NCBI GenBank assembly: GCA_947168485.1
Contig: CAMVLZ010000013.1
Span: 1 to 38,972, forward strand
DNA length: 38,972 bases
Reading direction: 5' to 3'
From: an uncultured Bacillota bacterium
GTDB lineage: Bacteria; Bacillota_I; Bacilli_A; RF39; UBA660
The notes beneath the pieces were generated by a model. It ran no database searches. It was not told where the DNA came from and worked only from the letters and a program-made list of their open reading frames with translations. Of this stretch, positions 6,347 to 30,419 are shown one piece after another. The translations under genes and the position numbers were made by a program. Numbering within the stretch: position 1 is the stretch's first letter; each line of letters begins with the position of its first letter.

Positions 6347-9300
6347 CTAATTATCCAGTAATTTTTTCTTTACAATAATCATTTCATAATCACTATCAAT
6401 TAAAGTATCACTATCATATAATTTAACCATTAATTTATAAGATCCAGATGTTAAGTTATTTTGTAATGTCCAATTTATATTAATTGGTGACGAATCCAAA
6501 GGAATAGTCTTTTCATACATAGTCTGTGGATGATTTGGAGTATTTAAATTAACGTCAAATAGTGATGTTAAATCTACTTCATTATATTCAGATGAATCAC
6601 TATTAGTTATATCTCTCTTATATAGTGAAACTCTAATATTAGGATTAGATAAAGTAGATGTATATTTTATTGTATAAGCATTCTTATTGCTTCCCATTTC
6701 ATTTAATGATAATGCTCCATCTACTACTTTATTCTTATCATCACCCTTAATTATGATAGAACTTGCAGTAGCAACTACAGTAACATTCTTAGTAACAACT
6801 ACAGGGTTAGCTGAAGCATGCATACCATCAGAAGAAGCAAATAAACTAAATTTAAACTTATAATTACCAGCAGGTAACATATCATCTGTCTTAAATATCA
6901 TTGAATTTGTAATATTAGAAACTTTACCAGCTAATCTAATTCTAAATATACCATCAGCATCAGCAAAGTATTCTTGATTACCAATCATAATAGAAGTACC
7001 AGTTAGTAATGAAGAACTAACAGTATTATTACTACTATCTATTATTTCAACATTTAATCCCATCACATTACTTTCATAGTTAGTATCAATAATAGATTCT
7101 CTACCATCAGTAACATCATATGAAACTTTAGTTGTAATAGATCCATTATTATCAATATCTTGATAGATATAATCACCTAAATTAACAGTTTCTACTAAAG
7201 TTGAATTAGATTCATTATAAGTAGAAAATTTCATAAGTTCTTGACGTGGAGATAAAACATAATACATTGTTCTATCTTCATTATTACGTAATTCTAACAT
7301 GAAAGTATTATTCTCACTTGGTTGTGTATTAGTACAATTTTTAAAATCAACTATAAACATAAATTCTTCAACAACTAAGTTATGATCAGAATCATAATAT
7401 ATTTGATTCATAGTTTCATCATCATAAGTATTAGATGTCGTCGTACTATCCATTGCGATGAAATCAGATAACCTGTACGTGACTTCATGATCACTCTGCA
7501 GTTGTGCCTGCTTAGCTGCATAATTCGTCGAGTTTACCGTGTAATAGTACTCTTTAGGCTGACCATCAACAGATGTATCAATCAAAGTTATCTCAGTACC
7601 AACAGGTAATACACTGTTAGTTACAATAGCATGATAATTATCACCATCATCACCATAGAATTTCTTAAAGCTTTCAGGTGTCGCAACCATAGAGAAATAT
7701 GCACTAAATTGACTACGATTAGTTATATTAACAGCTGTAGCAGACGGCAAATCATACTTCTTACCATAAGTAATTGAAGCATCATATGCATCTCCTAAAT
7801 CATATTCAACAGCCTCTAAATGAATAGTAATTGTAACTATATTTTCATCATATTCTATTGGATTTCTAGGAGTTAAAGCTTGTAAAGTAACTACTACAGT
7901 ACCTAACTCACCACTAGTATTAATATTCTTAGCATGATAGAAATAGAACATTAGTGACGGCTCCATAGATTGTGAGTCAGTCTTATACATTTCTGTACCT
8001 GTATAATCTCCATTATCTCTACTTACTAATTTAGTTGTACCATAATTAGTCCACTCTCTAGTCTCAGCTTTCATTGAAAGACCAAATACAGTATTAGCTT
8101 CATTATTGTCATAAGCAACTTTAGGTACATTATTAGAATCAACTAACCTAATTCCATCTTCTAAGTCAGCAGCATCAAATGATAATACATTGAATATTGT
8201 TGAACCATGAGAGAAATCATCCATACCTAAGTTATGAGTACCTAATGAAGAATACTTAGAAGCAGTCATAGTAAATTCATAATTTATTGTAGTAACTCCA
8301 ACAGACCAAATATAGAAATCAGAGTTATTTGGATGTGGAGTAATATATTCAGTCTTTAACTCAGTATAATCTCCATTAGCAGTTATATTAGTATAATATC
8401 CATCTTTCTTAATATCATGATTAGTAACATGAGCACCTTTAACTGAAGTTCCAGCAAATATATAATCATTTGAAGTAGTTTCAGAACCATAACTAAATGA
8501 ATCATCATAAACTCCAAAATGAGGATTATGTCCAGAACCAGTATACATTCCTAAGAAAGTCATACCCCATACTTCACCAGTAGTAGTAGCATCTTGATTA
8601 GTAGCAACATTTAATTTTTTATTTGCTAACATATAAAGTCTATTATCAACATTCTTAGTAACAGTTTTACTCTCATCATCAATATTAACAACTGCTTTTA
8701 CTTCAGAACCATCTTCTCCAACCATAGATTTAAATGTTTCTAAAAGGTTAGCATTTTCTCTTAATAATAACATTGAACCATTCTTAATAGTAAAATCAGG
8801 AACCCTACTTATAGAGTACTTAATAGTAGCATAATCATTAGTAGTATCAACAGTACCAGATAATTCTAAACAACTATTATCGATTACTACTTTACTAGCT
8901 CTTTGGATAGAAACTGCTTCATTTATACTATCTCTAGTACCTAAATTTCTAATATAAATTGTACTAGTAGCAGTAGACGCAATAACTGAGTTATTACCTG
9001 AACCAAAGAAAGATCCATTTACTATAAAGTCATGATTATGAGTACCATAATTCTTACCATCTATAATTATTTGCGCATCATCTGTAACAGATACAAATGA
9101 GAAGTCGTAGTTTTCACTACCAGAAGCATTAGCTTCACCTCCGGCAAAGACAGTTCCATATATATGTAAATCATTTTCTTCTAAATTTACTCCACTTGGA
9201 AGTGAATTAGTTCCAAGATATACATTAGTCTTTCCGTAAACTTTAGATGTATTAGCACCACCATATACATTTCCATAGATAGTACCACCATTTATATAAA

Positions 9301-12300
9301 CATTTGCACTACTTGAATTATTAGCAGCACTTCCTGTAGCAGCAGCATTTCCTGATCCAAATACACTACCAGTAGCAGGTTTACCTGTCTCATTAGCAGT
9401 ACCTATAACACTAGCTCCATCTATATAAATAGATGAATCACCATTAACTATCGCAGTTGCTCCATTACCTCCAGCATAAGCACTACCAGTAATAATACCA
9501 TCAGTTATATAAATATTAGTATCTCCAGTAACAACACCAAAGTTACCTCCACCATATACATTATTATTAACTTTAGAATCATCTATATCAACAAAAGTAT
9601 CTCCATTAACTTGAGCTTGGTTTCCTCCACCAAACAAAGTATTAATAACAGATCCATTTTTAATAGTAACATTTGTAGATCCTGTATTAGCTTTATTTCC
9701 TCCACCATATACAGCATCAACTACAGCTTTATCAACAATAACTTTAGGATTAGTAGTAATTCCACCATCATTATTACCACCATATACAGATCCAACATTA
9801 ACAGTAGCACTATTATTACCAATTTGAACATTAGCATTAGTAACATCACCAGATTCATTAGCGCCACCATATACTGAATCAATAGTTCCACCTAAAATAT
9901 CAACATTAGTAGTTGTAACACCTACTTTGTTACCTCCACCAAAGACATCAGTTATTTCACCACTATAAGTAGTAACATTAGAAGTTGTAACAGTTCCACC
10001 ATCATTATTACCACCATATATTTGTCTAGCAACAATAGTTCCAGTAGAACCAGAACTACTTCCAGAAATAACAGTAGTTTTATTTACATTTCCAGAAGTA
10101 TTTGAACCACCAAATACTTGATCACAAGTACCATTTTGTAAATTAATATTAGTACCTGTAGTTACATTAGCAGAATATCCTCCACCATATATATCATTAC
10201 ATGTACCACTAGCTAGAGTAACATTAGTTGTTCCAGATGAAGCAACATTTCCTCCACCATATATGTCTTCAGTAATGCTAGCACCATCAAATGTAACATT
10301 AGTTGTAGTTGCAGTACCACCTTGATTATTACCACCAAATATATTTTTAACACTACCAGATGTAGCAGTAACATTTGTAGTAGTAACAGTTCCACTTTGA
10401 TTAGATCCACCATAAATATTTTCAGTTACAGTAGAACCTTGTAAGTATACTTTAGTAACATTTTGACCAGTGTTATTACCTCCACCATAAACATTACCTA
10501 CAGTACCACCATTTAAGTATACTTTATCATCTTTAGCAGGAGAACCCATCATATCATTACCACCATATACAGCAGTAATATTACCTCCGTCTATATTAAC
10601 AGTAACATCTCCCCAAACATTAGGAGTAAATGTTGTACCACCATTTGTACCACCTTTAGCTCCACCAAAGACATTACCAGTAACTACTCCATTATTAACA
10701 GTAACAGTAGTAGTGTAATTAGAAGTAGAAGTACTATTATAATTTCCATTAACAGTACCAAATGCTGAACCACCATAAACATTTTCACCAATATTTAATG
10801 CAGTAGTATCAGCACTACCAATATTAACAGAAACATTTCTAGTTACAGCAGTACCATTATGTCCAGTATATCTACCACCTTCACCACCACCATATACACT
10901 TTTAGTGACAGTTCCATTTATAATATTTAAATTTGTATTTCCATAAATTGTACCATCAGTTTTACTACCACCATAGATAGAATCCTTAACAGTACAATTA
11001 CCATCCATAGTAATATTAACAGTAGAAACAACACTTGAACTACCAGCTCCATTATTATTTCCACCACCATATACACTACCTTGAATAGTACCACTATTTA
11101 ATAATATCTTAGTATTAGTAGTACCACTAGCCTCTAAACCAACAGCACCATAATTACCTCCACCAAAGACATTACCATTAATAGTACCACCATTTATTAA
11201 CACAGTAGAATTTAAAGCAGTACCAATATCTTCTCTTGAATCATTACCGTTACCAATACCAAATACATTACCTATTCCTTGACCAAAGGCAGTATTTGTA
11301 CCAGTAACACCAACGGTAGCATTACCACCAACATATACAAATGTTGATCCAGTTAAGATACCAGTTTCATTACTTCTAGCAGTAATACTATATCCATTTG
11401 AACCACCAAATACACTAGTTTTAACAGTACTACCAGAAAGATTAATAATACGATTTCCATATGTTTCAGCAGAACCAGCTCCACCAAACACAACATCTAT
11501 TTCTCCACCTTTTAAATTCATGAAAGTATCATTCTTATCAGCTCTAGTACTACTAGTACCAAGTCCTCCAACAAGTACATAAATACTTCCACCTTCTACA
11601 GTAATACTACGACTAGCAAACACAGTACCACCACGTCCACCTACATAAATACCAGTATAAGGGTCATATTTACTAGAACCAAATACTCCACTCTTAACAT
11701 TGATATTATATAAAACACCATTATCATTAGAAGAACGTAAAGTACCACCAGCAGCACCCTGTACAGAATAATAAACATCTAAATCATCATTATTATTAGT
11801 AACAATCCTATCATAATCATTACCTAATATTAATTGTCCATCTAAATATAAATTACCAGAATAACTCCAAGTTTCAGTACCATAAATATTACTATATCTA
11901 CCACTCTCTACAATAGTAGTATATCTCTCTGGATTAGCTTGAGATCCAACAGTAGTATTTCTTCCTCCAGCACTACCTCCAAATACAGAAGTAGCAGCTA
12001 CATATCTAGCATCAGTAATACCTCTACCTATCTTCAAATTATGATAATTACCAATAATAGCAACAGTATTATTACTTAATCCAGAAGAAGCAATTGATGT
12101 AGATCTAGCAGCTCTATTATAAAAATACATATATTCTATTCTCGCATCTTCATTAAGATACATATAATTAGAAGAATTAGTAATTCTACGATTAGCATAT
12201 AAAGTATTATTATTTAAACCAGTAATAGTACAAGGTTTATTAATATTAAATGCATTAACATTAGCATTAATAACCATAATATTAGTATCTCTAGTAACTA

Positions 12301-14368
12301 AATAATAATATTTATCATCACCATCTTCTAATGTTTGATTAATATCTTGTACTAAAGAATAAACATCACAACTTCCAGAACAAGTACCACTTAACTGAGT
12401 TCCAGTAAGATTATAATATCCATTTTGAGATTGTCCATTATTAAGAGTAACTTTTTCAAAATAACCAGCTACACTATCTCCAATATTAATTAAATATGAA
12501 TAATTCCAACTAGTAGGTTGTGGAAGTGTACCATTATATACACTAGCTCCATAATAATAACTTAATGTATATACAGTCTCTGTAGTATATTCTTCTATTC
12601 GTTCATAATATGTACAAGTTCGATTTTGATATCCATAACGTCTACTCCAAGTAGGTTCACAATAACTATTAGATAAACTTTGTCCATATTGATTTACAGC
12701 ACCACTCGGATAAGCAACTCCATAAGGATCAGTAGTAGATTCAATAGTTCTTCTAACATAAACCTCAGGGAACTCAACACCATCTTCATAAACAGGAGTT
12801 CTATTAGTTATAGGTACCATCTCACGAGATTTTAAATCATCTTGATTATTACCAGTAACAGTAGTAGCTTCAGTCCAAGAAGCTTGCATGTTAATATTAA
12901 TAACTTCTCCAGCAGTATAACTACTAATAGGAACTCTTAAATATCTAACATAAACATCAGTATCTAAACTAACAGTCGCTCCAGGATAATTAGTAACCCA
13001 TCCATTAAAAGCTAAATCATTAGGTCTATCAGCATAAGGATTATCAATTAAAGGAATTTCAATATATTTATTACTTCCACTACCCTTAATAGGATAATAT
13101 TTATAATAAATAATCTTAGATACTTGTTCATTTAAAGAAACATATCCAACAGCACTATCATCATTAATATCAGTACCATCATATGAGATATATACTTTAG
13201 CTAAATTAGAATCACTATATAGATTCAAACTAGTACCATCAGGAATAATACCATCAGATTTCTCAGTATAATTACGACCCATATAGTCATTATAATCACT
13301 AGTTAAATCATTAACATACAATGTATTACCAACTACCCCATTATCATGTAATGTAATAGTACTAGCATTAAAAGAAAAACTCTTTTTAGCTTTAGCACTC
13401 TTTTCAGTAACTACATCTACATAGAATAATTTTTCATTATCAAATTTCCATTCAAAGTCTTTTAATTTATTATTAAATAACTCTAATATAGCTTTACTAC
13501 TAATATCATCATCATTATAAATAAACTTATCTTCACCAGTCATTTTAATAATATTATTAGTTTTAATACCCTCATCAATATAATTAAATTCATCTAAACT
13601 CAAACTAGTATCAATTCTATAAATAATATTATTAACATCACTAAATATATTACTACTTATAATAGCAACATTAGTATCATATTTAGAACTAATCTTACCA
13701 TCAACAAATATATTATTAATATTTTTACTCTCTTCAACACTACCAGTTAATAAACCAATTCCACTACTAGCAACACTCTTAGTATTATCTAATTTAATAT
13801 TAATTCTAGATAAACTAATATTATTAATATTACTTTCTCCAGTAACAAAACCAGCTAAACCACCAACGTATAAAATAGAACTATTTTGAACAGGTTCAAT
13901 ATTAAAATTACTAATATTTAAATACTTAATTTCAGCTCCATCTAAATTAGAAAATAACCCATAACATTCAGAATCTCCAACATCATAACTACTTGTCATA
14001 TTGATATTAGAAATGTATTTTGAATTACCATCTAAATGTCCTTTAAAAGTAGCAAAAGGAGTAATATAATGATTATCCAAATCTATATTAGCCCCTAATT
14101 TATAATATTTATCAATATAATTTTTATCTTTATCTTCAAGTACTTTCTTTAAATACATTAACTGTTCACCATCATTAATCATATATGGATTAGCTTCTGT
14201 ACCATTACCTGAAGCAAAATCAGTTCCTATAGTTACTCCATCCCACTTAGTATAAGTAACTTCTGCTAAAGAACCATTAGAAAAAAAAGAAACAATACTA
14301 AAAGAAAAAACTAATAGTACAAACATAGCAAAAGTAATATACATTAATTTATTCTTTGTATTGCTCAT
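6347..14368 (-). CDS. Giant (2673-residue) secreted beta-repeat surface protein
   Basis: The protein has an N-terminal membrane signal (about 8-30) with likely cleavage after GSLA. An N-terminal domain contains GNGTEANPYMIND and DLDNHYITPF blocks, typical of surface proteins that start with a right-handed beta-fold. An InlB-like repeat lies near FNGWV. A long array at about residues 795-1790 carries roughly 30 copies of a [VI][YF]GGxN-type glycine motif (for example VYGGGNNNG, IYGGSNQSG), each ending a rung of about 20-30 residues rich in T, N and V, which suggests a parallel beta-helix or beta-solenoid. Several domains of 100-200 residues follow. There is no C-terminal membrane segment or sorting motif. 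It is preceded by a GGGAGG ribosome site and lies between the SipW-type peptidase and its apparently inactive relative. Function is unknown; a large adhesin or scaffold is the natural inference. Confidence 0.8.
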   Translation of the reverse strand: MSNTKNKLMYITFAMFVLLVFSFSIVSFFSNGSLAEVTYTKWDGVTIGTDFASGNGTEANPYMINDGEQLMYLKKVLEDKDKNYIDKYYKLGANIDLDNHYITPFATFKGHLDGNSKYISNINMTSSYDVGDSECYGLFSNLDGAEIKYLNISNFNIEPVQNSSILYVGGLAGFVTGESNINNISLSRINIKLDNTKSVASSGIGLLTGSVEESKNINNIFVDGKISSKYDTNVAIISSNIFSDVNNIIYRIDTSLSLDEFNYIDEGIKTNNIIKMTGEDKFIYNDDDISSKAILELFNNKLKDFEWKFDNEKLFYVDVVTEKSAKAKKSFSFNASTITLHDNGVVGNTLYVNDLTSDYNDYMGRNYTEKSDGIIPDGTSLNLYSDSNLAKVYISYDGTDINDDSAVGYVSLNEQVSKIIYYKYYPIKGSGSNKYIEIPLIDNPYADRPNDLAFNGWVTNYPGATVSLDTDVYVRYLRVPISSYTAGEVININMQASWTEATTVTGNNQDDLKSREMVPITNRTPVYEDGVEFPEVYVRRTIESTTDPYGVAYPSGAVNQYGQSLSNSYCEPTWSRRYGYQNRTCTYYERIEEYTTETVYTLSYYYGASVYNGTLPQPTSWNYSYLINIGDSVAGYFEKVTLNNGQSQNGYYNLTGTQLSGTCSGSCDVYSLVQDINQTLEDGDDKYYYLVTRDTNIMVINANVNAFNINKPCTITGLNNNTLYANRRITNSSNYMYLNEDARIEYMYFYNRAARSTSIASSGLSNNTVAIIGNYHNLKIGRGITDARYVAATSVFGGSAGGRNTTVGSQANPERYTTIVESGRYSNIYGTETWSYSGNLYLDGQLILGNDYDRIVTNNNDDLDVYYSVQGAAGGTLRSSNDNGVLYNINVKSGVFGSSKYDPYTGIYVGGRGGTVFASRSITVEGGSIYVLVGGLGTSSTRADKNDTFMNLKGGEIDVVFGGAGSAETYGNRIINLSGSTVKTSVFGGSNGYSITARSNETGILTGSTFVYVGGNATVGVTGTNTAFGQGIGNVFGIGNGNDSREDIGTALNSTVLINGGTINGNVFGGGNYGAVGLEASGTTNTKILLNSGTIQGSVYGGGNNNGAGSSSVVSTVNITMDGNCTVKDSIYGGSKTDGTIYGNTNLNIINGTVTKSVYGGGEGGRYTGHNGTAVTRNVSVNIGSADTTALNIGENVYGGSAFGTVNGNYNSTSTSNYTTTVTVNNGVVTGNVFGGAKGGTNGGTTFTPNVWGDVTVNIDGGNITAVYGGNDMMGSPAKDDKVYLNGGTVGNVYGGGNNTGQNVTKVYLQGSTVTENIYGGSNQSGTVTTTNVTATSGSVKNIFGGNNQGGTATTTNVTFDGASITEDIYGGGNVASSGTTNVTLASGTCNDIYGGGYSANVTTGTNINLQNGTCDQVFGGSNTSGNVNKTTVISGSSSGSTGTIVARQIYGGNNDGGTVTTSNVTTYSGEITDVFGGGNKVGVTTTNVDILGGTIDSVYGGANESGDVTNANVQIGNNSATVNVGSVYGGNNDGGITTNPKVIVDKAVVDAVYGGGNKANTGSTNVTIKNGSVINTLFGGGNQAQVNGDTFVDIDDSKVNNNVYGGGNFGVVTGDTNIYITDGIITGSAYAGGNGATAIVNGDSSIYIDGASVIGTANETGKPATGSVFGSGNAAATGSAANNSSSANVYINGGTIYGNVYGGANTSKVYGKTNVYLGTNSLPSGVNLEENDLHIYGTVFAGGEANASGSENYDFSFVSVTDDAQIIIDGKNYGTHNHDFIVNGSFFGSGNNSVIASTATSTIYIRNLGTRDSINEAVSIQRASKVVIDNSCLELSGTVDTTNDYATIKYSISRVPDFTIKNGSMLLLRENANLLETFKSMVGEDGSEVKAVVNIDDESKTVTKNVDNRLYMLANKKLNVATNQDATTTGEVWGMTFLGMYTGSGHNPHFGVYDDSFSYGSETTSNDYIFAGTSVKGAHVTNHDIKKDGYYTNITANGDYTELKTEYITPHPNNSDFYIWSVGVTTINYEFTMTASKYSSLGTHNLGMDDFSHGSTIFNVLSFDAADLEDGIRLVDSNNVPKVAYDNNEANTVFGLSMKAETREWTNYGTTKLVSRDNGDYTGTEMYKTDSQSMEPSLMFYFYHAKNINTSGELGTVVVTLQALTPRNPIEYDENIVTITIHLEAVEYDLGDAYDASITYGKKYDLPSATAVNITNRSQFSAYFSMVATPESFKKFYGDDGDNYHAIVTNSVLPVGTEITLIDTSVDGQPKEYYYTVNSTNYAAKQAQLQSDHEVTYRLSDFIAMDSTTTSNTYDDETMNQIYYDSDHNLVVEEFMFIVDFKNCTNTQPSENNTFMLELRNNEDRTMYYVLSPRQELMKFSTYNESNSTLVETVNLGDYIYQDIDNNGSITTKVSYDVTDGRESIIDTNYESNVMGLNVEIIDSSNNTVSSSLLTGTSIMIGNQEYFADADGIFRIRLAGKVSNITNSMIFKTDDMLPAGNYKFKFSLFASSDGMHASANPVVVTKNVTVVATASSIIIKGDDKNKVVDGALSLNEMGSNKNAYTIKYTSTLSNPNIRVSLYKRDITNSDSSEYNEVDLTSLFDVNLNTPNHPQTMYEKTIPLDSSPININWTLQNNLTSGSYKLMVKLYDSDTLIDSDYEMIIVKKKLLDN
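8990..11990 (-). repeat. Coding repeat array encoding about 30 GGxN beta-rungs
   Basis: Within the giant surface gene the minus strand repeats a short block encoding [VI][YF]GG[GSAN]N, alternating with T/V/N-rich segments. On the plus strand it appears as many degenerate copies of a ccaccatata / ccaccaaa core. Unit length varies, so this is a diverged protein repeat and not a recent tandem DNA expansion. Confidence 0.8.
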
Positions 14369-26414: not shown

Positions 26415-27140
26415 TCATACTTTATAAGCATGAACTACTAATCTATATCCATCAACAATAGTACATGTAGAAAGTGTCAATATTTGATTAACATTAGTCA
26501 AATCATCTCCAAAATTATGAACACTTCTTTTACTAATATTATTTATAAATTGAGAATAATTAATATTTTCAAAATTAGTATTTATATAATACTCCTCTTC
26601 TTCTACTTTATACATAGAAAATATTTTATAATTAGTAACACCATTCTTATCAATTAATTTTATATTTAAATTTTCATCATTAGAATACCAATCACTATTT
26701 AAAACTTTACTTAAACTACCAAACATAATACCATCTAATCTATTATGTCCATATATAACTATATTTTTATCACTACCATCAAATTTATTATTAGAATCCA
26801 TAAATACCCATCCAGCTTCACTCTTACTCTTATTAAAACTATGATTTAAATAAAAATCATCATTATTAGTTTTAACAACAGGATAACTAACATTAGTATT
26901 ATTAACAATTAAATAAGCAACTGTATCACTATTCATTTTAGATAATTCATCAAAATCAACTTCAAAAACACCTTTACTAACATCAATATTTATCTTATCA
27001 TCTATCTCTTCTTTTATTTTTTTAGAACTTTCACTCTCACCAAACCAAACAAATATATTAAATAAAGAATATACAAATATTAATGAAAATATTAATAATA
27101 GTACTTTTAAAATACCCTTCCTTAGTTTTCTTTTCTTCAT
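26415..27140 (-). CDS. Class B sortase
   Basis: This membrane-anchored transpeptidase attaches a sorting-signal protein to peptidoglycan. The 241 residues include an N-terminal membrane segment (about 10-32), the class B pattern VSYPVVKTNNDDFYLNHSF, the catalytic His in IVIYGHNRLDGIMF, catalytic Cys in LTLSTCT and the essential Arg in DGYRLVVHA near the end. There is no C-terminal membrane segment, distinguishing it from the class C enzyme at the other end of the window. Its upstream neighbour carries an NPKTG sorting signal, a class-B-like motif, so it is the likely substrate. GGTGAT three bases before the ATG supports the start. Confidence 0.93.
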   Translation of the reverse strand: MKKRKLRKGILKVLLLIFSLIFVYSLFNIFVWFGESESSKKIKEEIDDKINIDVSKGVFEVDFDELSKMNSDTVAYLIVNNTNVSYPVVKTNNDDFYLNHSFNKSKSEAGWVFMDSNNKFDGSDKNIVIYGHNRLDGIMFGSLSKVLNSDWYSNDENLNIKLIDKNGVTNYKIFSMYKVEEEEYYINTNFENINYSQFINNISKRSVHNFGDDLTNVNQILTLSTCTIVDGYRLVVHAYKV

Positions 27141-27153
27141 CTTATCACCACTT

Positions 27154-27181
27154 AAAAATCAGTACCTTAGTACTGATTTTA
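27154..27181 (-). terminator. Hairpin between the NPKTG protein and its sortase (partial terminator)
   Basis: An 11-bp stem (AAAATCAGTAC / GTACTGATTTT) with a CTTA loop is followed by only five T and then the sortase ribosome site. A leaky terminator would make much substrate and little enzyme from one promoter. Confidence 0.7.
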
Positions 27182-27195
27182 TAATAACTTTTTTA

Positions 27196-28575
27196 TTAAC
27201 GATTAGCAAGTTTTTTTGTAGTAACAACTACACCTGTTAATCCAAGTACCATCATAACAACAAATAATATGATAGCATCTCCTGTCTTAGGATTAGACTT
27301 AGAAGTTACTGAACTAGAATTATTATCTTCATCAGCTTCTCTATTTTGAGTATTTGCTGTATCTTTATATGATACTGCATATGTAGAGAACTTATCAGAT
27401 TCAGCACTAACTGTTCCATCTCCATTATCAGTAGTTTCTAAAGCAGTAGCTTCTCTACCATGTAATCTAATAATTTGATATTCTCTAGTATAACCTTCAG
27501 CTACTTCAGGTAAGTTTTCAGGTATAGCTAATGTAACTTTCATAGTCTTATCAGTTTCTTCTACATAAGCTACAACATCACCATCTTCAGTAACTTTAAC
27601 ACAATCTACATCATAATAACCAGCTACTTCAAAACCTTCTTCTAAAGCTTCACCAATTAATGTTTTAGTAGTATCTTCTACAGTATCTAAAGTCTTAGGA
27701 TCTAATAATTTATCACTAAGAGTATCATTTTCAACTACAACATATTTTCCTTGGTTATCACCAGAAACAACTTCATAAGCACCATATCCTTCTTGAATTT
27801 CTTCTTTAACAGGTTGACTTGCATAAGTACCACCTTCTATTGTTAAACAACTAGCTAATTGTGGATCAATATCAAATTTTCCATCTAAGTTCATATTTTT
27901 AATTAATAATGTAGCTTTATTATCTTTAGGTAAACTACCCCAAATATCTAATTGAATGATACCCTTAATTGTACCAGTTGTATCAACAGTTATTTGAGTT
28001 CCATCTGGATAATATCCAGTAGCACACATATCAAATGCATAATTAGTAGCTTTAGCTAAAATACTAGTATTACCAATAATATTAACCTTACCATTATTTG
28101 AACTTAATGTATAAGCACCACTTCTTGTAGTACCAGAACCATCTAAAATCATATCTTCTAAAGTTAAATCACAATAATTTTGAATTAACATAGCAGAATT
28201 AGAACTCATTATTAATTTTCCATTTTTTAACTTAATAGTAGACCCCTTCTCTAAATGATAGTTTTGAGATTCAGTACCAGTACTACCAACTAATTTAGCA
28301 CTTAAAGTTTGAGTATGCCCTTTAAAATCAATAACAAAATTTTTACCTACAGCATTTTTCCCTTTTAATGACACACCATCACCAGTAAAGTCTTTTAACA
28401 CTTCAATAGTAGTTAAAGTACCATCATTTGGAACAGCCGCAACAGCTTCTGGAATTGAATTATATTCAACATCTCCTATTTTAGCTACCGCATCAGAAGC
28501 ATTTACATTAATACATAAACCAAGTCCAAAGGCACATAAAACACTTAGTAATGTATTACGAATAAGTTTTTTCAT
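27196..28575 (-). CDS. NPKTG-anchored cell-wall surface protein
   Basis: I start at the ATG at 28575 (MKKLIRNTLLSVLCAFGLGL), with GGGAGG upstream; the longer frame runs through the promoter. The 459-residue product has a cleavable signal (after VNASD or nearby). It then has a beta-helix-like domain with N/G-rich rungs (about 25-240) and a second domain (about 250-405) with DTVEDTTKTL and SAESDKFSTYAVSYKD segments seen in many gut-Firmicute surface proteins. The sorting signal NPKTGD is followed by a hydrophobic stretch and KKLANR. The motif has Asn in place of Leu, consistent with class B sortase recognition. The downstream class B sortase supports this. Surface role (binding or coat) is inferred. 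Confidence 0.85.
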   Translation of the reverse strand: MKKLIRNTLLSVLCAFGLGLCINVNASDAVAKIGDVEYNSIPEAVAAVPNDGTLTTIEVLKDFTGDGVSLKGKNAVGKNFVIDFKGHTQTLSAKLVGSTGTESQNYHLEKGSTIKLKNGKLIMSSNSAMLIQNYCDLTLEDMILDGSGTTRSGAYTLSSNNGKVNIIGNTSILAKATNYAFDMCATGYYPDGTQITVDTTGTIKGIIQLDIWGSLPKDNKATLLIKNMNLDGKFDIDPQLASCLTIEGGTYASQPVKEEIQEGYGAYEVVSGDNQGKYVVVENDTLSDKLLDPKTLDTVEDTTKTLIGEALEEGFEVAGYYDVDCVKVTEDGDVVAYVEETDKTMKVTLAIPENLPEVAEGYTREYQIIRLHGREATALETTDNGDGTVSAESDKFSTYAVSYKDTANTQNREADEDNNSSSVTSKSNPKTGDAIILFVVMMVLGLTGVVVTTKKLANR

Positions 28576-28605
28576 ATAAGTATTCCTCCCATCTTTATTA
28601 ATTAC

Positions 28606-28634
28606 ATTATAAATAACAAAAATATATAAGTAAA
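28606..28634 (-). promoter_or_regulatory. Promoter of the NPKTG protein/sortase B operon
   Basis: Minus-strand -35 TTTACT (28629-28634) and perfect -10 TATAAT (28606-28611) with a 17-base spacer. Confidence 0.65.
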
Positions 28635-28721
28635 TCCATTTTGGAGATAACCTACTAATAAAAAATTTTTGTAATGTTAATTTACGTACATTTACAAAAA
28701 CATTTACAATCATATTAACAC

Positions 28722-28769: not shown

Positions 28770-28853
28770 GCTCGCGTGGCGGAACTGGTAGACGCGCACG
28801 ACTCAAAATCGTGTAACTTTGTTGTAAGGGTTCGAGTCCCTTGGCGAGCACCA
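28770..28853 (+). tRNA. tRNA-Leu(CAA)
   Basis: An 84-nt class II tRNA with encoded CCA. The anticodon stem CACGA/TCGTG encloses the loop CTCAAAA, giving anticodon CAA for UUG. The D-loop has GG (ACTGGTAG), the T-arm reads GGGTTCGAGTCCC, and a long variable arm is present as expected for leucine. The acceptor arms GCTCGC/GCGAGC pair. All conserved tRNA features are intact, in contrast to the neighbouring tRNA-like gene. Confidence 0.96.
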
Positions 28854-28864
28854 TAAAAAAAATA

Positions 28865-28890
28865 AAGAACTACCTAGTAGTTCTTTTTAT
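28865..28890 (+). terminator. Terminator of tRNA-Leu
   Basis: Stem AAGAACTA / TAGTTCTT with a CCTAG loop and a T-run. It can also work for the convergent tRNA-like gene, because A-rich sequence gives T on the other strand. Confidence 0.8.
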
Positions 28891-28902: not shown

Positions 28903-28978
28903 TGGTGCCGAAGAGATGGACTCACACCACTAACCTGCTACAAACAATGTAGCTGCTCTAAAATTGAGCTACTCCGGC
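28903..28978 (-). tRNA. Atypical tRNA-Thr(UGU)-like gene, possibly non-ribosomal
   Basis: This 76-nt cloverleaf has an encoded CCA. The acceptor stem GCCGGAG/CTTCGGC pairs fully (one G-T), the D-stem GCTC/GAGC and anticodon stem GCTAC/GTAGC are perfect, and loop ATTGTTT gives anticodon TGT. The threonine identity elements known from bacteria (G1-C72, C2-G71, G35, U36) are present. However, the D-loop is AATTTTA, without the invariant G18-G19. The T-loop is TGTGAGT instead of TTCRANY. Position 37 is T, where ANN-reading tRNAs need A for the t6A modification. The T-stem needs one bulged base. Intact stems with lost tertiary contacts resemble staphylococcal tRNA-Gly species used for cell-wall bridges. 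A decaying pseudogene is the alternative. Confidence 0.7.
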
Positions 28979-28990
28979 ATCTACAAATAA

Positions 28991-28996
28991 ATTATA
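28991..28996 (-). promoter_or_regulatory. -10 element before the tRNA-Thr-like gene
   Basis: A perfect minus-strand TATAAT ends 12 bases before the mature 5' end. No good -35 is visible at 17 bases, where the scpB terminator lies. Expression could also come by read-through from scpAB. Confidence 0.4.
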
Positions 28997-29005
28997 ACAA
29001 AACTA

Positions 29006-29035
29006 TATAAAAAAATCTATATTAATTATAGATTT
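29006..29035 (-). terminator. Terminator of the scpA-scpB operon
   Basis: Stem AAATCTATA / TATAGATTT (29013-29021, 29027-29035) followed by a T-run on the minus strand; the scpB stop codon lies in the loop. Confidence 0.8.
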
Positions 29036-29595
29036 TCTTCACTTTCTTTTGTATATAAATCTAATTCAGTATCATCTTTCTCTTCAGCATTTTCAATAAA
29101 TTTATCCATATTAGGTAAATCTTCAATAGATGATAAACCAAAATAATCTAAAAACTCATTAGTTGTTTCATATAAAATAGGTCTACCAGGTAAATCACTT
29201 CTACCACTCTCTTTAATAAACCCTTTCGCAACTAGTTTTCTAATCAATTGAGTAGATCCTACTCCTCTTAAATTATCTACTTTAACACGAGTAATAGGTT
29301 CATTATAAGCTATGATTGCTAAAGTCTCTAAAGCAGCTTGACTTAATTTATTAGTAATAGGATTTTCAATTAACTTTTTATAATAATCTCTATGTTCTTC
29401 TTTAGTAGTTAATTTAAATCTATTTCCTAAAAAATCTATTCTAATACCACGAGATTCATCTTCATAATCTTTTTTTAATTCATTTACTAATTCTTTTGCT
29501 TCATCATTTGTTATGTTCATAACTTCTTGTATTTGATCTAAAGTTAATCCATCTTCACCCATAACAAATAATAATCCCTCTAATACAGCTTTCAT
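29026..29595 (-). CDS. scpB: Segregation and condensation protein B
   Basis: ScpB is the winged-helix partner that bridges ScpA in the SMC-ScpAB condensin complex, which compacts and segregates the nucleoid. At 189 residues it is of normal length. It begins ILFV-type as AVLEGLLFVMGEDGLTLDQI and has the second winged-helix hallmarks SQAALETLAIIAYNEPITRVKVDNLRGVGS and GRPILYETTNEFLDYFGL. The C terminus is acidic. Its ATG lies directly after the scpA stop (TAG-ATG), with GAGAGTG upstream, so the pair is co-translated. smc itself is not in the window. Confidence 0.97.
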   Translation of the reverse strand: MKAVLEGLLFVMGEDGLTLDQIQEVMNITNDEAKELVNELKKDYEDESRGIRIDFLGNRFKLTTKEEHRDYYKKLIENPITNKLSQAALETLAIIAYNEPITRVKVDNLRGVGSTQLIRKLVAKGFIKESGRSDLPGRPILYETTNEFLDYFGLSSIEDLPNMDKFIENAEEKDDTELDLYTKESEENL

Positions 29596-30306
29596 CTATA
29601 CACTCTCCACTATAATATCATCAAAATTATTATCTTGTTTAATAATTAATTCTTTATTCTTACACATTTCTAATATAGCTAAAAATGTCGCAACAACATA
29701 CTCTTTATTATCTACAGGAAACAAACTAAAGAATGATATTTTTTTACTCTTCTTTAATCTATTTCTAATATCAATACATCTACTACTTACACTAATCTCT
29801 TTAACAGTAACTCTAGTCTTTAAAGGTTTAGATTTACTTTTTCTATCTAAAAACAATTTAAAAGCATTAATTAAATCATCAATTTCCCCTTCATTACTAA
29901 TATCTACATCTTCAGCATATTTATTAATATTTTCAGGTAACTTAGTATAAATATAACTTCTATTCTCACCTTTTTCTTCTAGAACATAACTTAGTTTCTT
30001 ATAAGCTTCATATTCTAGTAAACTTTGAATTAATTCTTCTCTAGGATCAATTACTTCTTCATCTTCTTCAACTTTCTCATTAGGAAGTAATAATTTAGAT
30101 TTAATCTCAATTAATTCAGAAGCCATTACTAAGTATTCAGAAGCAATCTCTATATTTAATTTTTCTTGTGACTCTAAATAATCTACATATTGTTTAGTAA
30201 TTTCTTCTATTTGAATATCCATTATATCCATTTCATTAATCTTAATCAAATGAAGTAATAAATCTAATGGACCTTCAAACTCATTAATTTTAAAGTCATA
30301 ATTCAT
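29596..30306 (-). CDS. scpA: Segregation and condensation protein A (kleisin)
   Basis: ScpA is the kleisin that links SMC heads and carries ScpB. The start is the ATG at 30306 (MNYDFKINEFEGPLDLLLHL), with GGAGTG upstream. The longer frame reads through the promoter -10. The 236-residue product has the signature FEGPLDLLLHLIKINEMDI, the long N-terminal helix region ending ASELIEIKSKLLLP, and a C-terminal winged-helix that binds the SMC head (FLAILEMCKNKELIIKQ). It is first in the operon with scpB. Confidence 0.97.
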   Translation of the reverse strand: MNYDFKINEFEGPLDLLLHLIKINEMDIMDIQIEEITKQYVDYLESQEKLNIEIASEYLVMASELIEIKSKLLLPNEKVEEDEEVIDPREELIQSLLEYEAYKKLSYVLEEKGENRSYIYTKLPENINKYAEDVDISNEGEIDDLINAFKLFLDRKSKSKPLKTRVTVKEISVSSRCIDIRNRLKKSKKISFFSLFPVDNKEYVVATFLAILEMCKNKELIIKQDNNFDDIIVESV

Positions 30307-30328
30307 AAAAATCACTCCAACTATAAAG

Positions 30329-30337
30329 ATTATAACA
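30329..30337 (-). promoter_or_regulatory. Extended -10 promoter of scpAB
   Basis: Minus-strand TGTTATAAT, an extended -10 (TGnTATAAT), lies between the last upstream terminator and scpA, so scpAB transcription can start after the tandem elements. No strong -35 is seen. Confidence 0.5.
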
Positions 30338-30344
30338 TAAACAT

Positions 30345-30419
30345 AAAAAAAAGACATCTTCTTCTAAAGATGTCGATATGAGAGAATATGAAAAATTTCA
30401 TTAACTGGATTAACCAGCA
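30345..30419 (-). ncRNA. Tandem structured element, copy 1 (ends in terminator)
   Basis: Read on the minus strand: TGCTGG hairpin (CTGG/CCAG, 30405-30417), then a self-complementary ATGAAATTTTTCAT (30388-30401), then the linker ATTCTCTCATA, then a strong terminator GACATCTT/AAGATGTC (30353-30374) with eight T. The whole arrangement recurs about 140 bases to the right with conserved linker and order. It may be a small RNA or a leader-type regulatory RNA. It lies 40 bases upstream of scpA but ends before that gene's own -10. I do not recognise the motif. Confidence 0.55.

Follow-up and report, generated by a model that had tools for sequence, protein, structure and literature searches.

The question raised by this locus is whether a tRNA-Thr(UGU)-like gene that lacks the elbow and decoding features of a proteinogenic tRNA serves the ribosome or is used elsewhere. 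The gene lies in a window of 38,972 nucleotides (the whole stretch of DNA that was analysed), which is one of the contigs of a 1.26-Mb metagenome-assembled genome of an uncultured Bacillota bacterium (25.7% G+C, 91.5% complete; G000 below). The gene, referred to here as the odd tRNA, and its surroundings comprise the following features:

28903..28978, minus strand: odd tRNA-Thr(UGU), as judged by sequence, covariance match, fold, homologues and covariation
28991..28996, minus strand: TATAAT -10 box, 12 nt upstream of G1, an extended -10 with a preceding TG (TGTTATAAT)
28864..28886, minus strand: intrinsic terminator, AAAGAACTACTAGGTAGTTCTTT with a T run, downstream of the odd tRNA
29026..29595, minus strand: scpB (Pfam SMC_ScpB, 2.4e-57), the upstream neighbour, on the same strand as the odd tRNA
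29596..30357, minus strand: scpA (Pfam SMC_ScpA, 4.8e-38)
28770..28853, plus strand: ordinary tRNA-Leu(CAA) (ARAGORN and Rfam), convergent with the odd tRNA

Within the genus, we compared G000 with G001, G002 (RUG13444, deposited as "uncultured Erysipelotrichaceae") and G003 (RGIG2824, from goat omasum, deposited as "Bacilli bacterium"). Among named genomes, a search for the exact motif returned only RUG13444 and RGIG2824 as further species.

Read on the minus strand from 28978 to 28903, the gene is GCCGGAG TA GCTC AATTTTA GAGC A GCTAC ATTGTTT GTAGC AGGTT AGTGG TGTGAGT CCAT(C)T CTTCGGC A CCA. The acceptor stem forms 7 bp (one of them G-U), the D stem 4 bp and the anticodon stem 5 bp, while the T stem carries a bulged C on its 3' side, is closed by A49-U65 and also contains U51-A63. 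UU takes the place of G18G19 in the D-loop (AATTTTA), G55-U56 replaces the TTC of the T-loop (TGTGAGT), and the UGU anticodon stands in the loop ATTGTTT, which has U37 and U38; CCA is encoded. Its sequence retains U8-A14, A15-U48 and U54-A58 of the tertiary core. The preliminary description of this DNA had the D- and T-loops, T37, UGU, CCA and the paired acceptor, D and anticodon stems right in every particular. In G000, G003 and G002, the features of a proteinogenic tRNA (G18-G19 with Psi55-C56, and a purine at 37) are replaced by UU or CU, G55-U56 and U37. Threonine identity resides in acceptor-stem pairs and the anticodon (PMC9976931), and the ThrRS identity elements G1-C72, C2-G71, G35 and U36, already noted as kept in the window gene, are invariant in all four homologues (G000, G002, G003 and, from a second genus described below, G243).

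Standard tools pass over the gene. ARAGORN does not call it, its sole call at this place in the window being the adjoining tRNA-Leu(CAA), and Rfam with default filters misses it, so that genes of this sort are silently skipped by these standard finders. With lax filters, Rfam RF00005 matches it at 39 bits (E 2.8e-7; gathering cut-off 29), which classes it as a tRNA. The cloverleaf is its minimum-energy fold, and is better than that of 200 of 200 shuffled sequences (z -2.9).

Comparison within the genus shows how the gene is maintained. All 76 positions are identical between G000 and G003, where scpB is 87% and the flanking spacers are 84–91% identical. Between G000 and G002, whose divergence is such that one Fem orthologue is only ~52% identical, 66 of 76 positions agree; in the same comparison the functional tRNA-Thr(CGU) agrees at 70 of 76 positions and the adjoining tRNA-Leu at 58 of 83 aligned positions. 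The odd tRNA is therefore changing at a rate like that of a functional tRNA-Thr(CGU), and much more slowly than its neighbour tRNA-Leu. The 10 differences include compensatory changes on both sides of two anticodon-stem pairs, a G-U to A-U change in one acceptor pair, the loss of one pairing in the anticodon stem, and CU instead of UU in the D-loop. Over the three distinct odd sequences, five pairs show both-sided changes with 98.4% of cells paired, a result reached in 6 of 500 shuffles. Changes in relatives thus preserve stems rather than break them, which answers the suggestion in the preliminary description that the gene might prove to be a pseudogene: neither random stem-breaking changes nor loss of CCA or promoter was found. 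The gene was not seen in G001, where the assembly is interrupted at the locus between contigs C85 and C37, one having its end at the 3' end of tRNA-Leu and the other just downstream of scpB. Since the contig ends flank the missing locus exactly, we dismissed this absence as counter-evidence; the locus falls in an assembly gap, and the odd gene is present in every species of the genus with sequence at the locus. An origin on a phage or plasmid was also rejected, since no phage matched, the single plasmid hit was partial and carried no weight, and the motif was in no viral contig. The identical 76 nucleotides in a second species and the diverged version in a third mean that the odd tRNA is not a product of chance. 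It is a real, conserved gene from which elbow and decoding features have been specifically lost, and in which the threonine identity elements are kept.

Putative transcription signals flank the odd tRNA. In the alignment, TATAAT is invariant at the same 12-nt spacing in G000, G003 and G002, whereas the rest of the G002 flank is unalignable; the box is not listed by the promoter scanner because no -35 fits. An AT-rich hairpin with T7, read from the sequence at the scpB stop codon, suggests that the scpB transcript ends separately. The symmetrical terminator at 28864..28886 may also serve the convergent tRNA-Leu. Most family members have tRNA-Leu(CAA) immediately after scpB and in the same orientation, in the conserved order scpA-scpB-tRNA-Leu(CAA) (L201-L228). 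In the genus with the odd tRNA, tRNA-Leu is inverted and the odd tRNA sits between it and scpB; the odd gene follows scpB directly in G000 and G003, and scpB plus one gene in G002.

We then surveyed the other tRNAs of G000, using ARAGORN on 1,264,034 of 1,264,265 bases together with a stem-only finder that ignores loop sequence and a covariance search on ~96% of the genome. Some 20 ordinary tRNAs were found, all with D-loop GG and T-loop TTC, in addition to the odd tRNA and one prophage tRNA-Lys-like gene. Because the other tRNAs are canonical, lineage-wide tRNA degeneration is ruled out. The prophage tRNA-Lys(CUU)-like gene (L052:18830-18904, minus strand; C1:38830-38904 of G000) has the D-loop AGTAGTA, the T-loop TGCAAAT and a T1xC72 mismatch, lies near terminase and portal-type genes, and has no relatives in 60 genomes.

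The preliminary description had held that its proposal would fall if the genome had no canonical tRNA-Thr(UGU), as the odd tRNA would then have to serve translation. The Val-Thr(UGU)-Tyr-Gln-Lys array of relatives is wholly missing from the G000 assembly, so that the lack of a canonical tRNA-Thr(UGU) there reflects an assembly gap and not biology. The canonical gene is present in the array of G003, which also has the identical odd tRNA, and in the first 400 kb of the single-contig G243, alongside its odd gene. Translation in these genomes does not, therefore, depend on the odd tRNA, and we infer from G003 that the two genes coexist in G000 as well. Charging would fall to a single enzyme, as G000 has one thrS. 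A co-evolving ThrRS was considered and set aside: G002 has a second ThrRS (L281:9641-11176, minus strand; 511 aa, lacking the N-terminal editing domain, with a ThiI-like protein as its neighbour and exopolysaccharide genes downstream), which was not found in G000 or G001 and does not explain the odd tRNA.

Outside the genus, a covariance model of the odd tRNA was run over 386 family genomes, and two genes scored above all canonical tRNA-Thr, both in genus g119 (G243 and G327). The G243 gene is a tRNA-Thr(UGU) whose D-loop reads AATTTCTA and whose T-loop reads TGCAATT; it is the closest sequence, being identical to the window gene at 65 positions. Like the window gene it has UGU, G55, U38, UC instead of D-loop GG, and an identical acceptor 5' strand (GCCGGAG); it is less extreme in that C56 and A37 are kept, its T arm is one base pair shorter, and it adjoins tRNA-Lys(CUU) where the window gene adjoins scpB. 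In G327 the corresponding place beside tRNA-Lys(CUU) is occupied by a CGU gene with a compensated A19-U56 elbow. The G243 and window genes may share descent or may have converged. The evidence base for the odd tRNA is thus narrow, consisting of one genus and one further species.

The elbow pair G19-C56 is nearly universal in tRNAs. It is replaced by A19-U56 in tRNA-Thr(CGU) of several other genera of the family (L131, L135, L257, L260 and L287), which points to a threonine isoacceptor set that is unusually free at the elbow. These genes resemble the odd tRNA in being tRNA-Thr of the same family with altered elbow bases, but differ in that the pair is compensated (A-U for G-C), G18 and U55 are kept and the anticodon is CGU; judging from their sequences, they are probably ordinary translational tRNAs. 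GG is retained in all the other UGU isoacceptors that were sampled across the family, with the exceptions of one canonical gene with TCC and a prophage-like gene. The latter (L159:1501-1576; C82 of G001) represents a third type of tRNA-Thr(UGU)-like gene; it lacks CCA, has the aberrant T-loop ATCATAC and is probably located on a mobile element.

As to enzymes that might use a threonyl-tRNA off the ribosome, the preliminary description had pointed to Fem/MurM-type transferases, and G000 does encode four full-length FemAB proteins (E 1e-59 to 1e-104), which match the S. aureus FemA (1lrz) and FemX (6snr) structures over their full length. A non-ribosomal tRNA feeding Fem enzymes agrees with the conserved gene, the canonical isoacceptor and the presence of FemAB, but no fem gene linked to the odd tRNA was found, and Fem enzymes occur equally in relatives lacking it. 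FemAB was present in 36 of 36 other family members tested, most of which had no detectable odd tRNA-Thr, including many with 3–6 FemAB copies; these enzymes do not, therefore, generally need the odd tRNA. A Fem tree singled out no enzyme unique to the odd-tRNA genus, and the g1 tandem Fem pair is also found in G017, where the odd-tRNA query (R1) had no match at E<=1e-7. What looked like a tRNA-Thr/Fem neighbourhood in G018 proved to be the ordinary tRNA array. As the Fem genes are neither neighbours of the odd tRNA nor restricted to genomes that have it, the peptidoglycan step is drawn by analogy. Lipid aminoacylation of the MprF type was rejected as a use, an MprF-type LPG synthase being absent from G000.

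The analogy is with the tRNA-Gly that supply FemX, FemA and FemB in S. aureus and S. epidermidis. The non-proteinogenic tRNA-Gly of S. aureus carry UU or CU in place of GG18-19, and A49-U65 and A51-U63 instead of strong EF-Tu pairs (PMC4052509), as the preliminary description had anticipated for the D-loop. The same replacements of GG18-19 are found here (UU in G000 and G003, CU in G002), strong EF-Tu pairs are likewise lost (A49-U65 and U51-A63 in the T stem) and the T-loop is altered, aminoacylation identity is kept, a canonical isoacceptor is retained (here in G003 and G243) and FemAB is present. The odd tRNA differs in its amino acid, threonine, in U37/U38, in the bulged C of the T stem and in being a single gene downstream of scpB, and its use by Fem enzymes is putative. 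For glycine in staphylococci, dedicated tRNAs withdrawn from translation are documented, and the aminoacyl-tRNA supply of other Fem/MurM enzymes is described as unclear (PMC4052509). A second point of comparison is tRNAOther of Bacillus cereus, which has a Trp anticodon and no translational role, affects the trpS1 T-box, and upon deletion thins the cell wall (PMC3399842). It is similarly a tRNA-like gene of Bacilli judged non-translational and with a bona fide anticodon (PMC3399842), but its anticodon is that of Trp, its transcript is longer and Fur-regulated, it is poorly charged and its sequence is unrelated; the odd tRNA, unlike it, has a conserved -10 box directly before the gene and a terminator after it.

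Based on these observations, we propose that: (i) the odd tRNA arose as a duplicated tRNA-Thr that became specialised for use off the ribosome, (ii) it would be transcribed from its own promoter and matured to a CCA-ended tRNA, (iii) it would be charged by the single ThrRS, whose recognition sites on it are intact, and (iv) EF-Tu and the A site would accept it poorly, as expected from the loss of the G18-Psi55 and G19-C56 contacts, of the strong T-stem EF-Tu pairs and of A37 (no t6A). Such poor use would leave the threonyl group for an aminoacyl-tRNA-dependent transferase, and its likeliest users would be peptidoglycan-bridge enzymes of the FemAB/FemX type. Taken together, the lost and retained features form the pattern expected, on sequence grounds, of a tRNA that is charged but stays off the ribosome. 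The steps that we infer are that the odd tRNA is charged, that EF-Tu binds it weakly, that it is used outside the ribosome and that it is connected with Fem enzymes. Non-ribosomal use of some kind is, on balance, probable. The staphylococcal-like base losses, the four FemAB genes, the one thrS and the lack of MprF lead us to prefer a dedicated threonyl donor for a Fem-type transferase, and we give even chances to the odd tRNA being a dedicated threonine donor, ill-suited to the ribosome, whose leading putative use is the synthesis of Fem-type bridges. The fuller proposition, that a dedicated non-proteinogenic tRNA-Thr in uncultured gut Bacilli feeds a Fem-type peptidoglycan transferase and originated from a redundant threonine isoacceptor with a free elbow, is tentative and falls somewhat short of even chances.

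Several other explanations were weighed against this donor role. The odd tRNA could be regulatory, an un- or poorly charged mimic of tRNA-Thr for the thrS T-box or another RNA regulator. A T-box with a threonine specifier (ACU) precedes thrS in G000, the anticodon and CCA, the two T-box contacts, are kept in the odd tRNA, tRNAOther affects the trpS1 T-box without taking part in translation (PMC3399842), and tRNA-Gly of either kind are reported to elicit a response from the S. aureus glyS T-box (Apostolidi 2015, cited in PMC7583486). However, the elbow-binding motifs of the thrS T-box (AGAGA and UGGUGA) are of the ordinary kind and stack on G19-C56, precisely the part of the elbow that is missing from the odd tRNA, the fem genes have no preceding T-box, and a pure decoy would not require invariant acceptor-stem identity elements; we consider this role unlikely. 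Distinctly unlikely, too, is that an extra tRNA-Thr(UGU) with a degenerate elbow is tolerated on the ribosome under some condition. The retention of U8-A14, A15-U48 and U54-A58, and the natural elbow variation of the family seen in the A19-U56 tRNA-Thr(CGU), would be compatible with it, but G003 and G243 have a canonical UGU gene, the other chromosomal tRNAs of the genome are all canonical, and G18/Psi55, G19/C56, A37 and A38 are lost together with no compensating pair, unlike in the A19-U56 variants.

The anatomy of the odd tRNA would fit a donor for a non-Fem enzyme, for example an unknown threonyl-tRNA-dependent peptide- or lipid-modifying enzyme, as well as it fits the Fem role, and Fem genes also occur in genomes that lack the odd tRNA. 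Against this, no MprF homologue is present, and of the families looked for (FemAB and MprF) FemAB alone is both present here and documented as drawing on dedicated tRNAs, and we regard a non-Fem user as quite improbable. A decaying, functionless tRNA duplicate is very improbable and largely refuted. Decay could account for the fact that the lost parts are loops, and the family's redundant CGU isoacceptor slot does drift, the G243 odd gene occupying that slot beside tRNA-Lys(CUU); yet G003 shows no change at 76 positions against 13% in the adjacent scpB, and paired stem changes, the promoter box and CCA are retained across the G000–G002 divergence.

If the odd tRNA is indeed a threonine donor for Fem-type enzymes, it would be the first dedicated non-proteinogenic tRNA outside glycine, and the same base losses in a threonine tRNA of a distant group would show that this route of escape from EF-Tu arose repeatedly. 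Under the donor role, the wall bridge of these uncultured bacteria from rumen and gut should contain threonine.

Elsewhere in the window, a class B sortase gene adjoins that of a secreted protein of 505 aa that weakly matches IsdC (26415-28713, minus strand). From its sequence this may be a surface locus for heme uptake, and the wall bridge would be the attachment site of its proteins. One open frame of 2673 aa occupies 6347-14368 on the minus strand.
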